DNA of 60,521 nt from Prosthecobacter sp. GTDB lineage: Bacteria > Verrucomicrobiota > Verrucomicrobiia > Verrucomicrobiales > Verrucomicrobiaceae. Position 1 is the first letter of the stretch; every line of letters begins with the position of its first letter. Positions 1-39,658 of the stretch are shown piece by piece. The translations under genes and the position numbers were made by a program. Location of the stretch: the NCBI RefSeq assembly GCF_029946185.1, contig NZ_JAQSEA010000074.1, positions 1 through 60,521 on the forward strand, in the 5' to 3' direction. The notes beneath the pieces were generated by a model. That model saw only the letters and a list, made by a program, of their open reading frames with translations, was not told the origin of the DNA and made no database searches.

Positions 1-692
1 TCTCCCAGTGCGAGTCCGTCCCGCTGTGCGTCAAAGGGGCGGGGGATGCCGCTGGGTGCGAGCGCGTGCAGAGTATCAAACCCGGCAAACACGAGCCGTG
101 CGAGGGCATCGTACCCTCCTGCGAGCACCCGTTTGGCCCGGCCGGAGCGGATCATCTCCGCGCCCCAACCTATGGCGTTGGCTCCGGAGGCGCAGGCATT
201 GGAAACGATGATGACCGGCCCGCGCCAGCCGAACTCGGCGGCGAGACTGCTCATCTGGCGCTGCGGCTGGTAATGCTCTGCACGCGAAAGCTGTGCCGGG
301 TCGCGGCCTGCATCATGATGCGCGTGTTCAAAATAGTCCTCGCCCAAAGACATCGCCCCGGCGGAGGTGCCGATGACCATCGCGTCGATGCCCTCCATGT
401 CTTGCCGTCCGGCCTGCGCGAGCGCCTCCCGGATTGCCATGAGGAGCATGCGCGTGCCACGGTCAAAGAAGGTCTGCTTGTGGGCAGGGATGCGGTGGAA
501 AAGGTTTTCTGTGGGCAGATCGACCACCCCGGCGGTTTTGGAGATGAATTCGCGGGTGTCGAAGAGTTCGACCGCCTTGAACGCGGTTCGGTCCGCCGCC
601 AGCGACTGTTCATTGGCCTGCCAGCCTCTGCCTAAAGGCGAAACGATCCCGGCTCCGGTGATGGCGATGCTCTGGGGTAAAGGAAAAGACAC
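1..692 (-). CDS. Beta-ketoacyl-ACP synthase (KAS), pigment-cluster type; C-terminal part lies outside the window
   Basis: This gene runs off the left edge and only its N-terminal 230 residues are present. It would condense malonyl-ACP with a growing acyl chain during aryl-polyene assembly. The frame opens with a typical KAS N terminus (ITGAGIVSPLG, residues 11-21), and the nucleophile is Cys167 within SNACASGANAIG. The GTG at 692 puts that N terminus at the usual distance; an in-frame ATG at 752 would add 20 residues and leave only 20 bp to the divergent ligase gene. It differs from the housekeeping FabF at 37663-38910. With the neighbouring ligase, methyltransferase and halogenase-like flavoprotein it marks a pigment cluster that continues leftwards. 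The two catalytic histidines fall outside the window, so activity cannot be checked. Confidence 0.85.
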   Translation of the reverse strand, partial: MSFPLPQSIAITGAGIVSPLGRGWQANEQSLAADRTAFKAVELFDTREFISKTAGVVDLPTENLFHRIPAHKQTFFDRGTRMLLMAIREALAQAGRQDMEGIDAMVIGTSAGAMSLGEDYFEHAHHDAGRDPAQLSRAEHYQPQRQMSSLAAEFGWRGPVIIVSNACASGANAIGWGAEMIRSGRAKRVLAGGYDALARLVFAGFDTLHALAPSGIPRPFDAQRDGLALG

Positions 693-772
693 TAGTGAAG
701 ACAGGATAAGATTCGTTGTGTGGAGGGTTGAACTGCTAACGCAAGTGTTCATTCTACCGCACGGCGCGGCCT

Positions 773-1990
773 ATGGTTTACGCTTCGCCGCAAGGACTGC
801 AAATGTTTGGTGAACGCTGGGATCGTATTGTGGCTGAGCGCGGAGCGCAGGCGGCTTTGTATCTTGCTGACGGACGTGCCACCACGTTCCGTGAGCTGGA
901 TGCGGAGGCGCGTGCCCTTAAGCCTGCCGGTGATCATGTGCTGGTACAGGGGGATGTGCCGCAGATTTTGCGCCAGTTGCTGGCCGGTTTTCTGCGCGAG
1001 GTGCCGGTACAACTGGTGGAAAAAGACCGCGCCCGCCGCGTTCCTGCCTCCCCGGTGCCGCCGGGCACGGCCCTGATCAAGCAGGCCGTCGGCGGTTCGG
1101 GAGTGCGCCGCTGCCAGTTTTTCACGTTTGATCAAATCGCTGCGGATGTGGACCGGCTGCATGAGGCGCTGGATCTCGGGGCACGCGGGGCAGGGGTGGC
1201 GGCGATTTCCTGCGCGCATTCCTTTGGCCTGACGATGACGGTGCTGCAAACCTTGTTCAACGGGGTGCCGACCTGCTTTGCGCCGCAGCCCTTTGCCCAG
1301 CCCTTGATGGAGGCGATGAAGCACCACCAACGGCTGTTTCTGCCAGGGGTTCCGGCCCTGTGGAAGGCCTGGCTGATGGGCGATGTCCGTTTTGATAATA
1401 TCAGTCTTGCGATCTCCGCCGGATCTCCGCTCACGTCTGGCCTGGAGCGCATGGCGCTGGAACAGCACGGGCTGAAAATTAACAATCTGTACGGTACGAG
1501 TGAGTGCGGAGCGGTGTGCTGGGATGAGACGCCCGATCTGCGTGAGGATGGGCGTGCTCTCGGCACCCTGCTGCCCGGGGTGCAGGCGCAAACTGACGCT
1601 GAAGGGCGGCTGATCGTGACCAGCAGCTCTGTGGGTCTGGGGTATGATGAACAACTGCCGCAGGAGCAGTATGGAGATGGCGTGTTCACCACCAGCGATC
1701 AAATCGAGCAGCAGGGGAACCGCTTGTGGTTTCAGCAATGTGCGGGTGCTGGCATCAACGTGGCGGGCCGCAAGCTCAGCCCCGCCGAGATTGCGGAAAA
1801 AATCATGAGGGCATCCCAATTGGAGCATGTGAAAATCTATGGCACGCGGAGCCGTGACCCTGAACGCTGTCAGGACATCGTGGCGGAGTTTGACCTGCCG
1901 CAGGCTGAGATCAATGCTGCGTTCAAAATTACGGCCTGTTCATTGCTCGCACCTTGGGAAGTCCCGCGTAAATGGATCGGCAGATCATGA
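773..1990 (+). CDS. AMP-dependent acyl/aryl ligase of an aryl-polyene cluster
   Basis: Member of the ANL adenylating family, 405 aa, probably activating an aryl acid starter (4-hydroxybenzoate-like) for loading onto an ACP. The core signature YGTSECG lies at residues 240-246 and the hinge region GINVAGRKLSP at about 327-337. The phosphate-binding loop is degenerate (GGSG near 107-110) and the protein ends just after a short VPRKW motif near 397-401, where the catalytic lysine would lie. Such short ligases are usual in aryl-polyene and xanthomonadin clusters. It is divergent from the ketoacyl synthase, with a common promoter region at 693-772, and its stop codon overlaps the start of the methyltransferase (ATGA). 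The substrate is inferred from context, not from specificity residues. Confidence 0.8.
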   Translation: MVYASPQGLQMFGERWDRIVAERGAQAALYLADGRATTFRELDAEARALKPAGDHVLVQGDVPQILRQLLAGFLREVPVQLVEKDRARRVPASPVPPGTALIKQAVGGSGVRRCQFFTFDQIAADVDRLHEALDLGARGAGVAAISCAHSFGLTMTVLQTLFNGVPTCFAPQPFAQPLMEAMKHHQRLFLPGVPALWKAWLMGDVRFDNISLAISAGSPLTSGLERMALEQHGLKINNLYGTSECGAVCWDETPDLREDGRALGTLLPGVQAQTDAEGRLIVTSSSVGLGYDEQLPQEQYGDGVFTTSDQIEQQGNRLWFQQCAGAGINVAGRKLSPAEIAEKIMRASQLEHVKIYGTRSRDPERCQDIVAEFDLPQAEINAAFKITACSLLAPWEVPRKWIGRS

Positions 1991-2652
1991 GTACTTCTTT
2001 GCCTTCCAGCGCCCTCAAACGAATCACCCGGCTTTGCCTCAAGCGCCGGGAGCGCTTCTACGCGGTGGCGAAACTGCGTTCCGATCCGGTTTATGCCGCT
2101 GTGACCAAGGAGCTGCTGGGCTCATCGCTGCCGGTGCTGGACATCGGCTGCGGCATCGGCCTGCTGGCGTTTTACCTGCGTGAGTCAGGCTTTGCACCTG
2201 CCATCGCTGGATTTGACTACGACGCGCAAAAAATCTCCTGTGCGCATGAGATGGTTTCGCTCAGTGACTGCCAAGGGCTCAGCTTCATGACCGGGGATGC
2301 ACGCACAGGGCTCCCGGAATACAGTGGCCAGGTGGTGATCCTGGACATCCTGCAATTTTTCACCCGGGAGGAGCAGGAAGCGCTGCTGAGAGCGGCGGCA
2401 TCCCGCGTGGCGCAGGGGGGGAAGCTCATCATTCGTTCCTGCCTGCAGAACGATTCCCTGCGCTTCCGCGTCACCGTGGCAGGAGACTGGCTGGCGCGGC
2501 TGACGAACTGGATGAAGGACGCACCTGTGTGCTACCCGGACCAAGCTTTGTTTGAGTCTGTGCTCGGTGCTGCCGGGCTGCGGGTGCGGGTGGGGCCGCT
2601 ATGGGGCGGGACGCCGTTCAATAATCATCTCGTCGTCGCTGAACGCGAGTGA
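1987..2652 (+). CDS. SAM-dependent methyltransferase of the pigment cluster
   Basis: Class I methyltransferase of 221 aa. The SAM-binding glycine loop VLDIGCGIG lies at residues 50-58 and the following acidic strand is GFDYDAQ. The ATG at 1987 overlaps the ligase stop by 4 bp (ATGA), so translational coupling is likely and this start is preferred over the ATG at 1972. Aryl-polyene clusters of the Escherichia/Vibrio/Xanthomonas type carry a methyltransferase beside the ligase, so a role in methylating the aryl head group is plausible. No substrate-specific residues could be recognised. Confidence 0.78.
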   Translation: MSTSLPSSALKRITRLCLKRRERFYAVAKLRSDPVYAAVTKELLGSSLPVLDIGCGIGLLAFYLRESGFAPAIAGFDYDAQKISCAHEMVSLSDCQGLSFMTGDARTGLPEYSGQVVILDILQFFTREEQEALLRAAASRVAQGGKLIIRSCLQNDSLRFRVTVAGDWLARLTNWMKDAPVCYPDQALFESVLGAAGLRVRVGPLWGGTPFNNHLVVAERE

Positions 2653-2796
2653 AAAGCTGTGTCTATCGCAACGAAATTCGTGTGATAGGACACATTCACT
2701 GCATTGAACTGGACATCCGGGCACGAACTGTGGACGATAACTCAGGGCAAGCAAAACCCACGCTGTTGTGCCTTATCCAACTGTTCTTTGAAGAAA

Positions 2797-3216
2797 ATGA
2801 AGATCCCAATTCTCGCAATTCTTGTGACCGGATTTTGTGCCCTCGTCGCAGTGGCGCAATCCGAGGAGGCGCAACCTCGGAAGATTGATCAAAAGGAGTA
2901 TTCACTGGGAGAAACCGATGCTCAGCGTGATCTGAAGCAGGGTAAGATTGTTTATGAGATCGTCGGGCAACCTAGCATGATTGACCAAGAGTTGACGCAG
3001 ATTGCGTTGAAGGAATACGGGATTTCAGTGAAGTTCCACGGTTGCATGGCAGGTCCTCGAATCGATTACGACCAAGGCTACCTAGATACGGTCGTCGCTC
3101 ATCTGAAGAAGAAGTTTTCGTTCGATCCAGTTCTTAAAGTCGAGCGTGATCTTCGAACGAAGAGCAGAGAACAGGACGGTGGAGGCAACTCCGCTGCGCT
3201 CCGTGCCTCACCTTGA
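2797..3216 (+). CDS. Small exported protein of unknown function (low-GC insert)
   Basis: 139 aa. The protein begins with a clear Sec signal peptide (MKIPILAILVTGFCALVAVA) followed by a polar domain with no family I recognise; FHGCMAGPRIDYDQG near residues 75-90 is its most distinctive stretch. The upstream ATG at 2704 is less likely because it would bury the signal peptide. Base composition is visibly lower in GC than the ligase/methyltransferase pair to its left and the deacetylase to its right. The last residues (GGGNSAALRASP) are encoded by an imperfect hairpin that resembles an integron attC site, so this could be a captured cassette gene. Confidence 0.6.
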   Translation: MKIPILAILVTGFCALVAVAQSEEAQPRKIDQKEYSLGETDAQRDLKQGKIVYEIVGQPSMIDQELTQIALKEYGISVKFHGCMAGPRIDYDQGYLDTVVAHLKKKFSFDPVLKVERDLRTKSREQDGGGNSAALRASP

Positions 3217-3225
3217 ACGTTCGCC
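3169..3225 (+). repeat. attC-like imperfect hairpin at the end of the small exported gene
   Basis: GAGGCA (3182-3187) pairs with TGCCTC (3204-3209). The outer GGT (3178-3180) pairs with ACC (3210-3212), leaving G3181 unpaired. An outer GAAC (3169-3172) pairs with GTTC (3219-3222). A nested pair of short arms with one extrahelical base just after or within a cassette stop codon is how integron attC sites are built. The terminal core (GTTCGCC) departs from the GTTRRRY consensus, so the assignment is tentative. It could equally be a chance hairpin or a terminator without a U tract. Confidence 0.3.
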
Positions 3226-3245
3226 CAACACAAAGCGCCTCCGTC

Positions 3246-3521
3246 ATGGCACGATTTTTTGACTGCGTTCGCCGTGCGGCAGCGATCCTCCTTACTATAA
3301 CCGGCCTTCGCATACTGCTCCACATTGTCTCGGCATTCAGGGACGTAGAGCATCATTCCAGCGTCGAAGCCTTTCTTCTTGTGCAGACCATTTCGCTACC
3401 ATGCAGCCTCCTTGCAGCAGCATACCTCCTTGCATTTCACAGGTATCGCATGGCAGCCATGACAGTGCTGATACTGAGTTCACTTGCATGGCTTCCTTCA
3501 GTTCTTCGCCTTGTTCGTTGA
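3246..3521 (+). CDS. Small membrane protein of unknown function
   Basis: 91 aa with three hydrophobic segments (AAAILLTITGLRILLHIV, SLPCSLLAAAYLLAF and MAAMTVLILSSLAWLPSVL), so an integral membrane protein. An alternative TTG start at 3213 overlaps the previous stop, but the ATG at 3246 places a short basic leader before the first helix and is preferred. No family recognised. It shares the lower GC of the preceding gene and may form one acquired unit with it. Nothing recognisable follows before the deacetylase gene ends at 3636. Confidence 0.5.
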   Translation: MARFFDCVRRAAAILLTITGLRILLHIVSAFRDVEHHSSVEAFLLVQTISLPCSLLAAAYLLAFHRYRMAAMTVLILSSLAWLPSVLRLVR

Positions 3522-3635
3522 AGAAATGATGCTCGGCGTTTGGCTGCACCGCCTCATTCAAATTCAGTCCGCTGACGCGTATGACCACCTCAAGCCGAAG
3601 TGTCCCCGAAGTTTAAGCCAGTTTTATGAGTGTCC

Positions 3636-4460
3636 TCAGTGTGCGGGTGGCTTCGTCGCCACCTCATCGTCGCCGAACGCGAGTGAGGCGGGCGGCGTGT
3701 CGCATTTCAGACCGCTGTTTTCGAGCAGGGAGGTCACTGACTGTGCGACTTCGATGGCCACGGGGGTGGCTTCGTGGATCAGGACGATGGCTCCGGGCTG
3801 CAAGCGGCGCGCAATGCGCTGCGTGATGGTGGGTACGTCTGTCTGCACGCCGTCAAATCCGCGCGCGCTCCACATCATCATCCGTAGGCCCAGCGCATGG
3901 GCGATGAGGGCGGTGAAGAGGTTGTGATGGCCGGCGGGCGGGCGGAAGAAGCGCGGTGGATGATCGGGGCAAATCGCCACCAGTGTCTCCTGACAGTCGG
4001 CGATCTCGCGCCACAACCGAGTCGGGTGCAGCAGCCAAAAGGTGCCGGCGGGATGCATCTGTGTGTGGTTGCCGATTTCGTGGCCGCGCGCGATGATTTC
4101 GCGTACGAGGTGTGGATGCTGTGCGGCATTTTTACCGACAAGAAAGAACAGCGCCTTGATTTGATGACGCTCAAGGAGGTCGAGAATCGCAGGCGTGTGC
4201 TGCGGGTGCGGGCCGTCATCAATGGTGAGGAGCACCTGGTTTCCAGCCTGTGGCAGTTGTTTGATCATGCGGCCAAACAGGGCGCAACGCGGTACCAGTG
4301 TGCCAATCATCAGGGTGGTCAGGACGGTGCAAAACAGCAGCAGGGCTGCCAGCGGCTGCTCGTGCCAGATCAGCCAGATCACCACCGGCAGCGGGGCGAG
4401 GGTCAGGGCGAAAAGAAAGTACGCGCGGCGCAGGGCGCATGCACGAGTCGCCGCATTCAT
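3636..4460 (-). CDS. Polysaccharide deacetylase (NodB/CE4 family), membrane-anchored
   Basis: 274 aa. Two hydrophobic segments (residues about 13-33 and 36-56) anchor a NodB domain. Visible motifs are TIDDGPH (79-85, metal-binding Asp82), GNHTQMHP (130-137, metal ligands His132 and His136), RPPAG (173-177) and LIHEA near 230. The family hydrolyses N- or O-acetyl groups on glycans using a divalent metal. The start overlaps the stop of the upstream LpxL-like gene (ATGA), so both are one transcript. NodB-like deacetylases occur in flexirubin-type clusters, and the substrate here may be a pigment-linked glycan or lipid rather than cell-wall polymer; that is inference. Confidence 0.85.
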   Translation of the reverse strand: MNAATRACALRRAYFLFALTLAPLPVVIWLIWHEQPLAALLLFCTVLTTLMIGTLVPRCALFGRMIKQLPQAGNQVLLTIDDGPHPQHTPAILDLLERHQIKALFFLVGKNAAQHPHLVREIIARGHEIGNHTQMHPAGTFWLLHPTRLWREIADCQETLVAICPDHPPRFFRPPAGHHNLFTALIAHALGLRMMMWSARGFDGVQTDVPTITQRIARRLQPGAIVLIHEATPVAIEVAQSVTSLLENSGLKCDTPPASLAFGDDEVATKPPAH

Positions 4461-5383
4461 GTCGGGTCGCGGGTGACGAGCGGTTCAAACACAAACCATT
4501 GGTCCCAGTGCTGCAAAAGAAAAGAATGCATCACCGGGAGCCAGGCGGCGCTGATCTCGGCGGCCTTGGTCTTGCTCCCGCCTGTGATGAAAGGTTTGCC
4601 AATTTCGATGCGGTAGGCCAAGCGGCCTCTGCGGGTGAGAAACACGGGGTAGCACGGCACGCCGGTCACCTCTGCGAGCACGAGCGGCCCGCGCGGGATC
4701 TTGTAAGTCACGCCGTCAATGCTGGCCTGCGTGGGGGTGACCTCGCCCAATACGCGGTCGCCCTGTACGCAGACGACTTCTCCGGCGAGGAGCAGGCGGC
4801 ACAGCTCCATGCCGAGATGGCCGCCGGGTTCGTTGTAATGAACGTGCAGATTGGGCACGCGGCGCTCTTGTTCACAGAGTTCTTCCCCGCGCAGTTTTTG
4901 CAGCGATGCGGAGGCCTCCGGCATGCGGACGGTGTGGACGGGCCGGGTGAATTTGAGCGCGAACAGGCTGGCACCGATGTCGTAGTTTCCCGAGTGTACG
5001 GTGAAAATCAGGGCACCTCCCGGATGCTTTTCCAGATTTTCGAAGTCGCCTTCGCCGATGATCTCCCAGTCGATCTTGCGCCCAAAATGGAGGTACCAAA
5101 GCCGGTCGAGGTAAGTCCATGAAAACTGGAGGAACACCTGATATCCGGCCAGACAACTGGAGCCTTTGCCGGGAATGAGGGCGCTGAGATTGGCACGGAT
5201 GGCCTCACGCTGCTTCACGGCCAGCAGATAAGCCAGTGCGGCCAAGGGATAGGTCATCAGGGTGAAAACCGGCGCGGGGACCCAGCGCATGAAAAACAAG
5301 ATGGCCTGCGTCCAGAACGCATCATGAAGACCCAAGCGCGAGGGCGTGTTCGGCTCGTGGGTTGCAGAATCGGCGGACAGCAT
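4457..5383 (-). CDS. LpxL/HtrB-like lysophospholipid acyltransferase of the pigment cluster
   Basis: 308 aa. The acyltransferase motif HX4D is present as HSGNYD (His130-Asp135), and a second conserved block, VQGDRVLGE, lies near residue 205. An N-terminal hydrophobic stretch (about 28-55) would anchor it in the inner membrane. The family transfers an acyl chain from acyl-ACP to a lipid hydroxyl. Aryl-polyene clusters normally carry such an enzyme, which is thought to attach the polyene acyl chain to a membrane lipid or sugar. It is divergent from the flavoprotein gene and translationally coupled to the deacetylase. A role in normal lipid A acylation cannot be excluded from sequence alone. Confidence 0.82.
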   Translation of the reverse strand: MLSADSATHEPNTPSRLGLHDAFWTQAILFFMRWVPAPVFTLMTYPLAALAYLLAVKQREAIRANLSALIPGKGSSCLAGYQVFLQFSWTYLDRLWYLHFGRKIDWEIIGEGDFENLEKHPGGALIFTVHSGNYDIGASLFALKFTRPVHTVRMPEASASLQKLRGEELCEQERRVPNLHVHYNEPGGHLGMELCRLLLAGEVVCVQGDRVLGEVTPTQASIDGVTYKIPRGPLVLAEVTGVPCYPVFLTRRGRLAYRIEIGKPFITGGSKTKAAEISAAWLPVMHSFLLQHWDQWFVFEPLVTRDPT

Positions 5384-5472
5384 TATTTAAAGACGTACCA
5401 TGGGATGGGTTGAGACGTTCTGTTTCGACCGTCACACCCCTTCCGACAACTGACTTTTTCAGCACCACACGC

Positions 5473-7023
5473 ATGATTTCATCCAGCACCGATTACGACG
5501 TGGTCATCATGGGGGGGGCTTTTTCCGGCGCATCGACGGGAATGCTGCTCAAACGCGAGCACCCGGCCATGCGCATTCTCATTGTGGAACGCACGGTGCA
5601 GTTTGACCGCAAGGTGGGGGAAAGCACTTCGGAAGTGGCGGGCTGCTTCCTCACACGGGTGTTGCATCAGGGTGACCACCTGAGTGCGCACCACTATCAA
5701 AAACACGGCCTGCGCATGTGGTTTTGCAAGACGCCTGATGATGACGTAGGGGATCTCACTGAGATCGGGCCACGCTACCAGTCACGTCTGCCCACCTTCC
5801 AGCTTGACCGCGCCGTCCTGGACGAGCACCTGCTCAAGGAAGCCTGTGACTTCGGCTGCGAACTGCTGCGCCCGGCCACGATCAAAACGATCACGCTTTC
5901 GGAAGATGAGGCCCCGCACACGCTGGAAATCATGCCGCAGGAAGGGCAGATGCGCACGGTGACCACGCGCTGGCTGATCGACGCCTCCGGCAAGGCGGCC
6001 GTGCTTTCCAAGAAACTTGGGCTGCACCGTAGCATGGAGAGCGAGCACCCCACCTCGTCCATCTGGTGCCGATTCCGCAATGTGAACGGACTCGACAGCT
6101 ACAAGAGCCGCAAGATGCACCCGAAGCTCATGGGAAAAGTGAGCGGCCTCCGCACCACGGCCACGAACCATCTTATGGGGCATGGCTGGTGGTGCTGGAT
6201 CATCCCGCTTTCCGATGGCAGCTACAGTGCGGGCATCACTTGGGACCGGCGGTTTTTCACTCTGCCGGAGGGGCCGTCGCTCCTAGCCCGGCTGCAGGCG
6301 CATTTGATGACGCAGCCGATTGGCCGGCTCATGTTTGAAAATGCGGTGCCGGATGCCGATGACACCTTCTACTACAAGAACCTCGCCTATCGCTCCGAGC
6401 GCATCGCCGGCAACCGCTGGGTCATGGTGGGTGATGCCGCCGGGTTCATGGACCCCTTGTACAGCCACGGCCTGGACTACTGCGGCCATACAGTTTCTGC
6501 CGCGACCGATCTGGTGGAGAGGAACCTGGCGGGTGAAAACACGCAGGGGATCACCGACTACCTGAACACGGCCTACCCGCGCAGCTATCAACTGTGGTTC
6601 AATGCGCTGTACAAGGACAAATACTCCTACTTGGGCGACGCGGAGCTGGTGAACGCGACGTTTCTGCTCGACCTCTCCGCCTATTTTATCGGCCCGGTGC
6701 GGGGGGTGTATGACACTCCGGAGATCGAATGGAAACAGATGCCGTACGGTGGGCGTGCAGGTGAGGCTTTTGGCTGGTTCATGGCTTTCTACAACCGCCG
6801 CTTCGTACATCTCGCGGAGGTGCGGCGGCGCAAGGGCATCTACGGCCGCGCCAATAACGGGCACGTCTGGCTGCCGTTCATCAGCCTGTCTCCAGACCCC
6901 ACCGCCTTGCGTCTGCTGTGGGCGGGGATCAAGGTCTGGATCAAGGCGGAGATCGTCACCTGGCTGGCACCGACTCCGGCCACCGCGCCGGTGATGATGG
7001 CGGAGAAGCCGGTGGAGGCGTGA
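5473..7023 (+). CDS. FAD-dependent oxidoreductase of the tryptophan-halogenase family
   Basis: 516 aa. The FAD-binding start is VVIMGGAFSGAS (10-21), a slightly degenerate GxGxxG. WLIDASG lies at 167-173, the halogenase signature WxWxIP appears as WCWIIP at 240-245, and GDAAGFMDPLYSHG lies at 320-333. Conserved motifs therefore support the flavin-dependent halogenase fold, but whether it chlorinates or only oxidises is unclear. Relatives occur in xanthomonadin and flexirubin clusters. The ATG at 5473 is preferred because it places the FAD motif at the N terminus; an upstream ATG at 5362 would overlap the divergent acyltransferase gene. A long inverted repeat follows the stop. Confidence 0.85.
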   Translation: MISSSTDYDVVIMGGAFSGASTGMLLKREHPAMRILIVERTVQFDRKVGESTSEVAGCFLTRVLHQGDHLSAHHYQKHGLRMWFCKTPDDDVGDLTEIGPRYQSRLPTFQLDRAVLDEHLLKEACDFGCELLRPATIKTITLSEDEAPHTLEIMPQEGQMRTVTTRWLIDASGKAAVLSKKLGLHRSMESEHPTSSIWCRFRNVNGLDSYKSRKMHPKLMGKVSGLRTTATNHLMGHGWWCWIIPLSDGSYSAGITWDRRFFTLPEGPSLLARLQAHLMTQPIGRLMFENAVPDADDTFYYKNLAYRSERIAGNRWVMVGDAAGFMDPLYSHGLDYCGHTVSAATDLVERNLAGENTQGITDYLNTAYPRSYQLWFNALYKDKYSYLGDAELVNATFLLDLSAYFIGPVRGVYDTPEIEWKQMPYGGRAGEAFGWFMAFYNRRFVHLAEVRRRKGIYGRANNGHVWLPFISLSPDPTALRLLWAGIKVWIKAEIVTWLAPTPATAPVMMAEKPVEA

Positions 7024-8069: not shown

Positions 8070-9155
8070 ATGTCTAGCAGTCTCGGCACTCTTTTCCACA
8101 TCAGCACCTGGGGTGAATCCCATGGCATCGGCGTTGGCGTCGTCATTGACGGCTGCCCGCCACGCATCCCCCTCACGGTGGAGGACATTCAGGCCGAACT
8201 CGACCGCCGTCGTCCTGGCCAGAGCAAGATCGTCACGCCTCGCAAGGAGGACGACAAAGCGGAAATTCTTTCAGGGGTGCTCGATGGCCTCACGCTCGGC
8301 ACGCCCATTGGCATTCTGGTCCGCAACACGGATCAGCGCCCCTCTGCCTACACGGAGATGCAGCAGGCCTATCGACCCAGCCACGCGGATTACACTTATG
8401 ATGCCAAGTACGGCATCCGCGCCGTGTCTGGCGGTGGCCGGTCCAGCGCCCGTGAAACGATTGGCCGTGTGGCCGCCGGTGCCATCGCGCGCAAGGTGCT
8501 GCAGCACTCGCTCAGCGGTTACGAATGCCTGGCCTACGTGAAGACGGTACAGAACATTGAAGCGAAAGTGCCTGTGGGGGCAGAGCTGACTTCGGCGGTG
8601 ATTGAATCCAACATCGTTCGTACCTGCGACCCCGTCGTGGCGGAAAAAATGATCGAGCTGATTGAGCGCATCCGCAGCGAAGGCAACAGCGTCGGCGGTG
8701 TGATCGAGTGCGTCGTGCGCGGCGTGCCGCCCGGTTTGGGTGAGCCGGTGCTCGACAAGCTGGAGGCCGATCTCGCCAAGGCGATGATGAGCCTGCCGGC
8801 AACGAAGGGTTTTGAAATCGGCAGCGGTTTCGCAGGCACCCAAATGACGGGCTTGGAGCATAACGACGAATTCTACATGGACGGCGAGAAAGTCCGCACC
8901 CGCACCAACCGCAGCGGCGGCATTCAGGGCGGCATCAGCAATGGGGAGGAGATCGTCTTTCGTGTCGCTTTCAAACCCACCGCTACCGTGCTGCGGGAGC
9001 AGAAGACCGTGACCAACACCGGAGAAGATACGACCTTGTCCGCGCGCGGTCGTCACGATGCCTGCGTGCTGCCACGCGCCGTGCCGATGGTGGAGGCGAT
9101 GGTGCATCTCGTGCTGGTAGACCATTTCCTGCGCCAGCGCGCGATGAGGGGGTGA
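8070..9155 (+). CDS. aroC: Chorismate synthase
   Basis: 361 aa, full length for the family. It converts 5-enolpyruvylshikimate-3-phosphate to chorismate with reduced FMN. Diagnostic motifs are STWGESHG near the N terminus, [20 protein letters not shown] around residue 120, GLEHNDEF and [12 protein letters not shown] in the C-terminal half. The ATG at 8070 puts the usual MSSSLGTLF start in place; the TTG at 8049 is an unnecessary extension. It stands apart from other aromatic pathway genes here. Chorismate is also the source of 4-hydroxybenzoate, a likely starter for the nearby pigment cluster, though no functional link is shown. Confidence 0.97.
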
Positions 9156-37662: not shown

Positions 37663-38910
37663 CTAATCGAATTTCTTGATCAGCAACGCAGCATTGTGGC
37701 CGCCGAAACCGAAGGAGTTGCTCAGGACGGCATTGATCTTCGCCTGACGGGCAGTGTTTGGCACGACGTCCACGTCCACCTCGGGGTCGAGGTTTTCGAC
37801 GTTGATCGTCGGCGGCACCACTTGGTCCCGGATCGCGTAGATGGAGGCAATGAGTTCCACGCCACCGGCAGCGCCGAGGAGGTGGCCCGTCATCGACTTG
37901 GTGCCGGAGACGAGCAGGCCGTTGGTGGCGTAGTCACCAAACACGCGCTTGATGGCGCGCAGTTCGCACAAGTCACCGACCGGAGTGGAGGTGGCGTGGG
38001 CGTTGATGTACTGCACGTCAGTCACGTTCAGCTTGGCATGGCGCAGGGCCATTTCCATGCACTTGGCCGCACCCAGACCTTCGGGATGCGGGGAGGTTAG
38101 GTGGTAGGCATCCGCAGTAGTGCCGTAGCCAACCAGTTCGGCGTAAATGGGGGCTCCGCGTTTTTTGGCGTGCTCAAGCTCTTCGATGACGACGACGCCT
38201 GCGCCTTCGCCCATGACGAAACCGTCGCGGTCCTTGTCCCAGGGGCGGGATGCCCGTTCAGGATCGTCGTTGCGCATGCTCAGCGCCTTCATGTTGGAAA
38301 ATCCGGCAAGTCCGCAGGGGCGAATGGAGGCTTCAGCGCCGCCGCAGATCATCACGTCGGAATCGCCGAACTTAATGTTGCGCCAAGCTTCGCCGATGTT
38401 GTTGTTGGAGGTCGCACAGGCCGTGACGATGGCCATGTTCGGTCCCATGTAGCCAAACTCCGCCGCGATCATGCCGCTGGCGATGTTCGAGATCATCATC
38501 GGGATGATGAAAGGGGACACGCGGGAAGGGGACTTCGTCAGCAGAATCTCATACTGCGTTTCCAGGGTGCCGAGACCGCCGATGCCGCTGCCGACCATGA
38601 CGCCAACGCGGTGGGGGTCGAGACTGTCGGGGTTCAGACCGGCGTCCTTGGCCGCCATTTTCGAGGCCGCCATGGCAAACTGGTAGTAGCGGTCGGCACG
38701 ACGGGCGTCGCGATGTTGATTGAAGAACTCGGTGGGATTGAAGTCCACCACCTCCCCCGCGATCTTGCAGTCGTACTTCTCGGTGTCCATGGACTGGATG
38801 CGACGGATGCCGCTCTTGCCTGCCTGGATGTTCTTCCAAAAGTCATCTTTGGTGTTGCCGACGGGGGAGATGACTCCCATGCCAGTGATGACTACGCGAC
38901 GCTCGCTCAT
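37663..38910 (-). CDS. fabF: Beta-ketoacyl-ACP synthase II
   Basis: 415 aa, normal length. It elongates fatty acids by condensing acyl-ACP with malonyl-ACP. The nucleophile is Cys165 in IVTACATSNNNIGEA; the catalytic histidines lie in NAHATSTPVGD and FGFGGHNAAL. Start MSERRVVITGMGVISPVG at ATG 38910; the longer frame to 39159 runs through the divergent promoter. It differs from the pigment KAS at 1-692. The divergent neighbour is lolA, 67 bp away. Confidence 0.95.
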   Translation of the reverse strand: MSERRVVITGMGVISPVGNTKDDFWKNIQAGKSGIRRIQSMDTEKYDCKIAGEVVDFNPTEFFNQHRDARRADRYYQFAMAASKMAAKDAGLNPDSLDPHRVGVMVGSGIGGLGTLETQYEILLTKSPSRVSPFIIPMMISNIASGMIAAEFGYMGPNMAIVTACATSNNNIGEAWRNIKFGDSDVMICGGAEASIRPCGLAGFSNMKALSMRNDDPERASRPWDKDRDGFVMGEGAGVVVIEELEHAKKRGAPIYAELVGYGTTADAYHLTSPHPEGLGAAKCMEMALRHAKLNVTDVQYINAHATSTPVGDLCELRAIKRVFGDYATNGLLVSGTKSMTGHLLGAAGGVELIASIYAIRDQVVPPTINVENLDPEVDVDVVPNTARQAKINAVLSNSFGFGGHNAALLIKKFD

Positions 38911-38977: not shown

Positions 38978-39658
38978 ATGGCAGCGAAAAGCTTGAGATT
39001 CGGGAGGTTTTGGTGTCTGGCTCTTCCTGTGAATCGTTTGCCCACAGTTCTTGCCGCCGCCCTCTGGCTGGCGCTGCCTCTCCAAGCGGCCCCAGATCCT
39101 GCTCTCATTCCGCCCGTGATGAGGGAGTGGATGGCGGCGCAAAAGGACATCGGCAGCATTAAAGTGGCCTTCCATCAGACGCGCACCACGCCCGCTCTCA
39201 AAGAGCCCGTCACCGCCACCGGCCGTTTCTGGCGCATGGCCGATGGCCGGTTTCGCCTGGAAATGGGTTCACCCGCGACAACGATCCTGATCTTCGACAA
39301 CGAAACCGTGCGCCTCAAGGAAAACGCGGAGGCTCCCTGGCAGACCCTGAAGCCCGACGACAGTCGGGTGCGCGTATGGATGAAATTCCTCAGCGGCCGG
39401 GAAATGGACAGTGAGTCCCTGACGAACAACTTCACGCTCAAGGTCACTCAGCAGGAGAAAAGCTTCATCACCGTGGCCATGATTCCACGACCATTGCTCA
39501 TCAAGAAGTACCTCCGGCAGCTCGATATGCAGATCGAGCCCGGCGGCAGGCGTCTCCTAGGCTTCCGAGTGGTGCAGGGGGACGGGTCCACGCTGCTGCT
39601 CAATTTTGGTCCGCCGGAGAAGCTTAATGGAGACCTGAAGTCACTGTTTCAGCCTTAG
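38978..39658 (+). CDS. Outer-membrane lipoprotein carrier protein LolA-like
   Basis: 226 aa. A hydrophobic leader (PTVLAAALWLALPLQAA) gives a periplasmic protein. The body (IGSIKVAFHQTRTTPALKEPVTATGRFWRMADGRFRLEM...TTILIFDNETVRL) has the unclosed beta-barrel pattern of LolA, which shuttles lipoproteins to the outer membrane. It also resembles the LolA-like carriers found in pigment clusters. The ATG at 38978 is chosen; upstream frame codons run antisense through fabF. It meets the isoprenyl synthase gene tail to tail with a 20-bp gap. Confidence 0.78.
   Translation: MAAKSLRFGRFWCLALPVNRLPTVLAAALWLALPLQAAPDPALIPPVMREWMAAQKDIGSIKVAFHQTRTTPALKEPVTATGRFWRMADGRFRLEMGSPATTILIFDNETVRLKENAEAPWQTLKPDDSRVRVWMKFLSGREMDSESLTNNFTLKVTQQEKSFITVAMIPRPLLIKKYLRQLDMQIEPGGRRLLGFRVVQGDGSTLLLNFGPPEKLNGDLKSLFQP

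Follow-up and report, generated by a model that had tools for sequence, protein, structure and literature searches.

A probable dispersed polyene pathway with an altered AMP-ligase homologue in Prosthecobacter

The left end of a 60,521-base contig of Prosthecobacter sp. (NZ_JAQSEA010000074.1, assembly GCF_029946185.1; the whole stretch is hereafter called the window) carries six genes, encoding a ketoacyl synthase (KAS), an AMP-ligase homologue (LIG), a methyltransferase (MT), a NodB-like deacetylase (DEAC), an LpxL-like acyltransferase (LPXL) and a halogenase-family flavoprotein (HAL). A first-pass annotation took them for the edge of an aryl polyene (APE) or flexirubin-like pigment cluster, the remainder of which would lie beyond the contig end. 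The locus thus raises a twofold question, namely, which kind of pathway the six genes serve and where the rest of it is to be found. They probably belong to a dispersed, APE-like polyene pathway that in this genus works with a ligase predicted not to adenylate. Sequence comparison supports this reading through a gene set matching annotated APE clusters, the grouping of the same families in a genome of another family, natural fusions of KAS with its chain-length factor (CLF), and the co-occurrence of the ligase with HAL and a family 2 glycosyltransferase (GT2). The annotation was right in what it observed and wrong about the geometry of the cluster, and the locus is judged to represent a pathway of a known kind in a dispersed, variant form.

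The block at the contig end

The source genome comprises 6.19 Mb in 317 contigs and is 95.9% complete. As the window is exactly one of these contigs (C74), the KAS (3-752, minus strand; PF00109 ketoacyl-synt, 2.2e-29; start probably near 692), rightly described at first reading as running off the edge, is truncated by the contig end; the part present shares 96% identity over 231 aa with the full-length KAS of a close relative (locus L027). LIG (773-1990, plus strand, 405 aa; PF00501, 2.7e-14) diverges from it and is followed by a SAM-dependent MT (1972-2652, likely start 1987, plus strand; PF13649, 2e-9). DEAC (3636-4460, minus strand; PF01522 Polysacc_deac_1, 1.3e-30) has NodB as its top-scoring finer model, though under the cut-off of that model, and is preceded on the same strand by LPXL (4457-5383; PF03279 Lip_A_acyltrans, 6.6e-10). 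HAL (5473-7023, plus strand, with the longest open reading frame from 5362; PF04820 Trp_halogenase, 2.3e-11) completes the block, and all six family assignments proposed earlier are borne out by Pfam. Both of the ATGA couplings reported with them can be read in the sequence: the LIG stop TGA (1988-1990) overlaps the ATG at 1987, which is in frame with MT, and the LPXL stop overlaps the DEAC start on the minus strand.

HAL possesses both an RKVGES and a WxWxIP motif, which we take to be the catalytic lysine region and a second motif expected of flavin-dependent halogenases, and its closest solved structures are halogenases (1.2e-15), but the QhpG monooxygenase model and LodB score on par with CmlS, all of them under the cut-off.

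The block is well conserved. In 11 named relatives, whose ligases are 75-90% identical and which include metagenome-assembled genomes labelled Prosthecobacter or Verrucomicrobiaceae, the order KAS-LIG-MT-DEAC-LPXL-HAL is kept in every case (LPXL and HAL being shortened in L035) and MT always adjoins the ligase, so these genes have not come together by chance. The ratio of nonsynonymous to synonymous substitution rates (dN/dS) against L027 lies between 0.09 and 0.22 for all six genes. Genes in the compared loci were called with a home-made program based on codon usage, and some ends or starts are likely wrong (e.g., a short ApeD-like call in L109).

The expectation of further cluster genes on the left held, in the relatives, for a single gene. 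Leftward of the KAS (407 aa), L027 encodes a KAS-like CLF (341 aa), then DUF4412, a sugar ABC permease, a rhomboid protein and NAGPA, and further on a cyclase/arylformamidase, GFO/IDH/MocA and DUF1501 proteins, which are unrelated to a polyene cluster. A DUF4412 homologue stands left of CLF in nine of 11 close loci having that flank, with other genes in L036 and L055. A direct search (1e-3) of 16 close loci and the window for ACP (acyl carrier protein), KR (ketoreductase), DH (dehydratase), ApeD, MMPL and GT2 homologues, and likewise for thioesterase, DUF3261, tyrosine ammonia-lyase (TAL), LPG_synthase_TM and patatin homologues, found none, and its sole match was the window's own LolA-like gene. 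The leftward view in the relatives reaches about 9 kb, less than the roughly 20 kb named in the first-pass annotation; of the ACP, DH, KR, second KAS and MMPL exporter that the first-pass annotation expected there, only the second KAS appeared, as CLF. Judged by these relatives, the KAS partner of the source genome presumably lies just past the contig end, and placing the remaining cluster immediately there is rejected, as the relatives show CLF and often DUF4412 instead. In eight loci from members of the genus further removed (L045, L046 and the fused loci L038, L039 and L041-L044), only LIG, KAS and CLF stand together, the tailoring genes being elsewhere.

Between MT and DEAC, the window has a gap of about 1 kb with small open reading frames (2704-3521), one of them weakly matching a FEKKY domain under the cut-off; at this place, MT and DEAC of L027 overlap convergently.

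Pathway genes elsewhere in the genome

Candidates for further pathway genes are spread over other contigs of the source genome. On contig C317, genes for a FabG-like KR, an ACP, an LPG_synthase_TM protein and a patatin lie side by side; the ACP has the DS site and matches ApeE (8e-13) better than AcpP (5e-6). The pairing of an ApeE-like ACP with a KR, one of the marks of an APE pathway, is therefore found on this contig, and in a genome of another family (G041) the two share one region with KAS and CLF. On C121, a FabA/Z-like DH is divergent from an acyltransferase with 33-35% identity to ApeD, and the end of C60 encodes an MMPL protein of 793 aa, a candidate exporter. The LolA-like carrier (39131-39658, plus strand; PF03548, 1.6e-11) lies in the window itself, adjoins a polyprenyl synthase gene and matches its APE counterpart weakly (1e-4). 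In the genome G016, the MMPL gene (L089) is adjoined by that of a protein with an N-terminus similar, by eye, to the window LolA.

What ties these parts, MMPL and LolA apart, to the block is G041, a genome of the same taxonomic order, which groups most of the families in two blocks. In its first region, LIG stands opposite KAS and CLF, after which come KR, an unrelated transporter, ACP, LPG_synthase_TM, patatin, a flavoprotein and HAL, the last being 49% identical to the window HAL; the second region holds LPXL, DEAC, MT, an ApeJ-like GT2 and DH. Similarly, MT, GT2 and an ApeD-like gene lie beside DH in G018, and the KR-ACP-LPG_synthase_TM-patatin quartet is kept in L095-L098. The flavoprotein directly before HAL in G041 (L102:11944-13251) is a second member of the halogenase family, and one of similar N-terminus stands between trpC and the LPG_synthase_TM gene in G018 (L091).

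The own-genome genes lie on C74, C317 and C121 and form no single contiguous cluster. This dispersal is no artefact of broken contigs, because G016, assembled in only six contigs, also has its genes far apart, with the ligase at 1.59 Mb, MMPL at 2.01 Mb and DH at 2.66 Mb of its first contig and the quartet on the third.

The families also travel together. Among 56 genomes, 39 have a ligase far above background and 17 lack it (a weak match of 2.9e-9 in G035 being counted absent). HAL (1e-60 or better) occurs in 35/39 ligase-positive genomes vs 1/17 ligase-negative ones, and GT2 (below 1e-40) in 29/39 vs 0/17, with a weak match of 7e-15 in G052 counted absent. Outside the genus, GT2 was found in all seven ligase-positive and none of the 14 ligase-negative genomes (Fisher p 9e-6), and HAL in 4/7 and 0/14, respectively (p 0.006). 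These figures are inflated by shared ancestry, but genomes having and lacking the genes alternate in three of the families (f3, f4 and f6).

Other ACPs of the source genome, on C29, C44 and C212, are flanked by genes that are unrelated or unclear. The one on C44 (L080:2860-4415) adjoins trpC and an open reading frame without a significant Pfam family.

The ketosynthase pair and the altered ligase

The full-length KAS of the relatives retains an intact Cys-His-His triad, the window holding only the N-terminal part of its own KAS, and the CLF of L027 has lost the Cys and both His, with one His left in G041. Judged from the relatives, the pathway has the combination typical of APE systems, an elongating ketosynthase (KS) with its triad and a catalytically dead CLF. 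In six of the 22 loci having both, a short linker joins the two into a single reading frame. A canonical CLF Gln at the Cys position (G041, G037) was dropped as a feature, since the Gln is two to three columns off in two alignments. A search for plasmid homologues of CLF found none.

The KAS of L027 scores highest against FabF (206 bits), followed by ApeR (167), ApeO (157) and FabB (146), and among solved structures against FabF 1j3n (233 bits), 9s5h_B (220) and ApeO 6qsp_A (153). In a tree of 29 rows, the 13 verrucomicrobial KAS group together (100/100), and their clade includes no FabF, FabB, ApeO or ApeR row. It is thus separate from FabF and FabB, and the KAS is rejected as the primary FabF, a role accounted for by a FabF-type gene of the window (37663-38910), which groups with E. 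coli FabF.

The ligase of the genus departs from its homologues in other families at three places, which we take to be the adenylation motifs. In all 14 aligned rows of the genus, the window included, a VGxxGxRRC loop stands in place of the ATP loop, TSG(S/T)TGxxK/R, which is intact in all six aligned homologues from other families and in ApeH. In the hinge stretch, the same 14 rows lack the GR pair at the position where the six others and ApeH retain it; the wider claim of a lost GRxDD hinge was dropped, as GRxDD is complete in only three of these six homologues and ApeH has GRRGR. The C-terminal RGK(L/I) motif is missing in 20/20 close loci (19 from genomes assigned to the genus, with L033 placed by similarity) and kept in all six homologues of other families. 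Of these ligases, 18 stop within about ten residues past the PRxW at the end of the conserved region, the other two (L041, L043) extend beyond it with unrelated residues, and a GK pair occurs at another, non-conserved place in five of the 20 tails.

On these motifs, the genus ligase is predicted to be dead for adenylation. Its dN/dS against five relatives is 0.11-0.15, which indicates a protein maintained under purifying selection and not a decaying one; its predicted role is a non-adenylating one, such as acyl transfer, scaffolding of KAS-CLF or starter binding. Its match to ApeH is a BLAST value of 0.009 only, its matches on plasmids are weak, and its AlphaFold model is too poor for use (mean pLDDT 42). 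No report of such an altered ligase was found in one open-licence literature library.

The nature of the pathway

The compared systems agree with the block to different degrees. In the available part of its description, the E. coli CFT073 ape cluster has in common with the Prosthecobacter set a KS-CLF pair, KR, DH, ApeE-like ACP, AMP-ligase homologue, MT, and LpxL-like and ApeD-like acyltransferases, with LolA and MMPL perhaps to be added (PMC8253772). LPXL matches the acyltransferase half of E. coli ApeJ (6e-11), and the GT2 of G018 is 40% identical to ApeJ. The differences are that apeA-R is given as a single 15.5 kb cluster, whereas the genes are dispersed here; that the part of the gene list available names no halogenase or deacetylase, both of which the window has (PMC8253772); that ApeC has 240 aa and the L027 CLF 341 aa; and that ApeH, described in the portion at hand as adenylating 4-hydroxybenzoate before loading it onto the ACP (PMC8253772), keeps the ATP loop that the genus ligase is without.

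The best gene-list match is arcuflavin, a xanthomonadin-type product of Azoarcus sp. BH72, whose annotation, as far as the source was available, lists a halogenase, methyltransferase, PS-deacetylase, acyltransferases, AMP-ligase and ketosynthase pair (PMC3949708), so that all six window genes have counterparts by annotation alone. Its pair consists of a KS and an N-terminal-KS protein, like KAS and its partner, and its genes occupy two loci, azo3910-3921 and azo0253-0264, according to the same partial source (PMC3949708). Azoarcus has in addition a XanB2-type chorismatase and a dialkylresorcinol locus, in so far as that text goes, while the source genome differs in having more loci and an altered ligase. 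The flexirubin cluster of Chitinophaga pinensis is given in the accessible part of its description with a deacetylase, acyltransferase, LolA, glycosyltransferase and exporter (PMC3992019), the first two common with the window and LolA and the exporter perhaps so; in contrast, a PF00221 lyase is absent from the Prosthecobacter genome and the motifs of its ligase are not intact. The earlier claim of a core gene set known from APE, xanthomonadin and flexirubin clusters consequently stands in full for the arcuflavin annotation and in part for flexirubin, as far as these sources go.

In the dispersed polyene pathway that we consider probable, KAS-CLF would extend an ACP-bound starter with malonyl units, and KR and the FabA/Z-like DH would turn each unit into a conjugated double bond. 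MT may methylate and HAL oxidise or halogenate the head group, the acyltransferases and DEAC would attach the chain to a lipid or sugar carrier, and LolA and MMPL, as candidates only, would move the product to the outer membrane. The starter, and hence the aryl part of the product, is hypothetical. An aromatic ammonia-lyase (TAL or phenylalanine ammonia-lyase, PAL; PF00221) was absent from all 14 genomes searched, 11 of them ligase-positive and the source genome included, with 5/14 controls positive. Because the ligase motifs are lost and no TAL/PAL was found, the evidence supports neither a flexirubin-type starter nor ApeH-type activation of 4-hydroxybenzoate; the product class first proposed is plausible from the matching families, the KR, ACP and DH candidates and a KAS clade separate from FabF and FabB. 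It is conceivable, albeit tentative, that the genus pathway is primed without an ATP-dependent ligase of its own, the divergently paired ligase persisting as a conserved dead partner of KAS-CLF (a single chain in one subclade), in which case neither hydroxybenzoate nor coumarate activated by a ligase would be the starter and the pigment could be a polyene of an undescribed kind.

A chorismate synthase gene (AroC, 8070-9155) follows HAL and NAGPA in the window. AroC is near the block in all 11 named relatives (in L030 as a 30-residue end only) and near an inverted block too (G016; L040), and it is not near it in L045 and L046. A role for AroC in starter supply is speculation.

Several observations weigh against an APE-like pathway. 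The lyase is missing from the 14 genomes and, by its motifs, the ligase does not appear to be the adenylating, ApeH-type enzyme that an APE pathway requires. No ApeI-like DH (PF22818) was found in the source genome, the ApeP model not having been searched, and the DH of C121 is FabA/Z-like only, although it adjoins tailoring genes in G041 and G018. The MMPL protein matches ApeM at 0.001, does not match the MMPL-like protein of Pseudoalteromonas, and in G041 is not on the contig that bears the cluster; LolA could be the housekeeping carrier of lipoproteins in general and is thus a candidate only. LPG_synthase_TM and patatin are not among the compared APE gene tables, in the parts available. Neither ApeO nor ApeR groups with the KAS, the deeper order of the tree being without resolution and carrying a long-branch warning. 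Regarding co-occurrence, the HAL match in G005 (41%) may be a paralogue, a GT2 orthologue is missing in the source genome and eight close relatives, all ligase-positive, as well as in G022 (ligase-positive, 52% complete), and the presence of MMPL and LPG_synthase_TM in 15/15 genomes searched has no weight because all 15 are ligase-positive. The pathway accordingly appears APE-like in its workings, yet its ligase motifs, its lack of contiguity and its KS clade keep it out of that class in the strict sense.

A rival reading is a dedicated fatty-acid or lipid-modification pathway, in which KAS-CLF, KR, DH and ACP would build an unusual hydroxy- or unsaturated acyl chain for the LpxL- and ApeD-like acyltransferases to put on an envelope lipid, with neither aryl head nor pigment. 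The predicted death of the starter-activating ligase and the missing TAL would fit it, as would the LpxL-like and ApeD-like acyltransferases, the patatin, the deacetylase and a PagL-like gene in G041, but HAL in 35/39 ligase-positive genomes, the methyltransferase, the KAS-CLF pair and a gene set mirroring APE clusters argue the other way, and we regard this explanation as unlikely. Flexirubin proper, a tyrosine-derived aryl polyene esterified with dialkylresorcinol, is highly improbable, as the lyase is absent in 14/14 genomes and the ligase altered, despite a deacetylase and an acyltransferase common with the flx cluster, and perhaps LolA and an exporter, as far as its partly available description goes. 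A similarly slight chance is given to an aromatic type II polyketide pathway (KS-CLF-ACP) with a cyclised product: the minimal polyketide synthase (PKS) genes KAS, CLF and ACP are present, but KR and DH families accompany them, and no cyclase or aromatase was noticed beside the set in G041, where no search was aimed at one.

Detection of polyene pathways by cluster-based tools depends on contiguity. Genes that are conserved yet spread, as those of the dispersed polyene pathway appear to be, could lead to under-counting or mis-assignment of such pathways in Verrucomicrobiota. Aryl polyene calls of the antiSMASH type have been published for this phylum (PMC9865893, PMC8692599, PMC12193912, each available in part), and nothing on Prosthecobacter with an aryl polyene was found in the open-licence library searched. 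A conserved starter ligase without its motifs, together with natural KS-CLF fusions, would offer handles on starter choice and subunit pairing in type II polyene synthases.

A 788-aa protein of a Streptomyces sp. NBC_01003 plasmid (L136:3971-6337), annotated as one KAS-family protein, joins an intact N-terminal KS to a C-terminal KS-like half without the Cys and His, which is the layout of the six fused KAS-CLF proteins; its setting differs, the neighbours being a KASIII-type gene, FabD, acpS and a monooxygenase. A Pseudoalteromonas plasmid cluster is annotated with TAL, LolA, an FAD oxidoreductase, DUF3261, a hotdog protein, FabG and two KAS, and its flavoprotein is 25% identical to HAL. For plasmid matches of HAL, two neighbourhoods were read, neither resembling an APE cluster. 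In the source genome itself, contig C279 (L081, 7578-12367) encodes a chalcone/stilbene-type (type III) PKS, an FAD monooxygenase, an ACP and a FabB-like KAS in a row.

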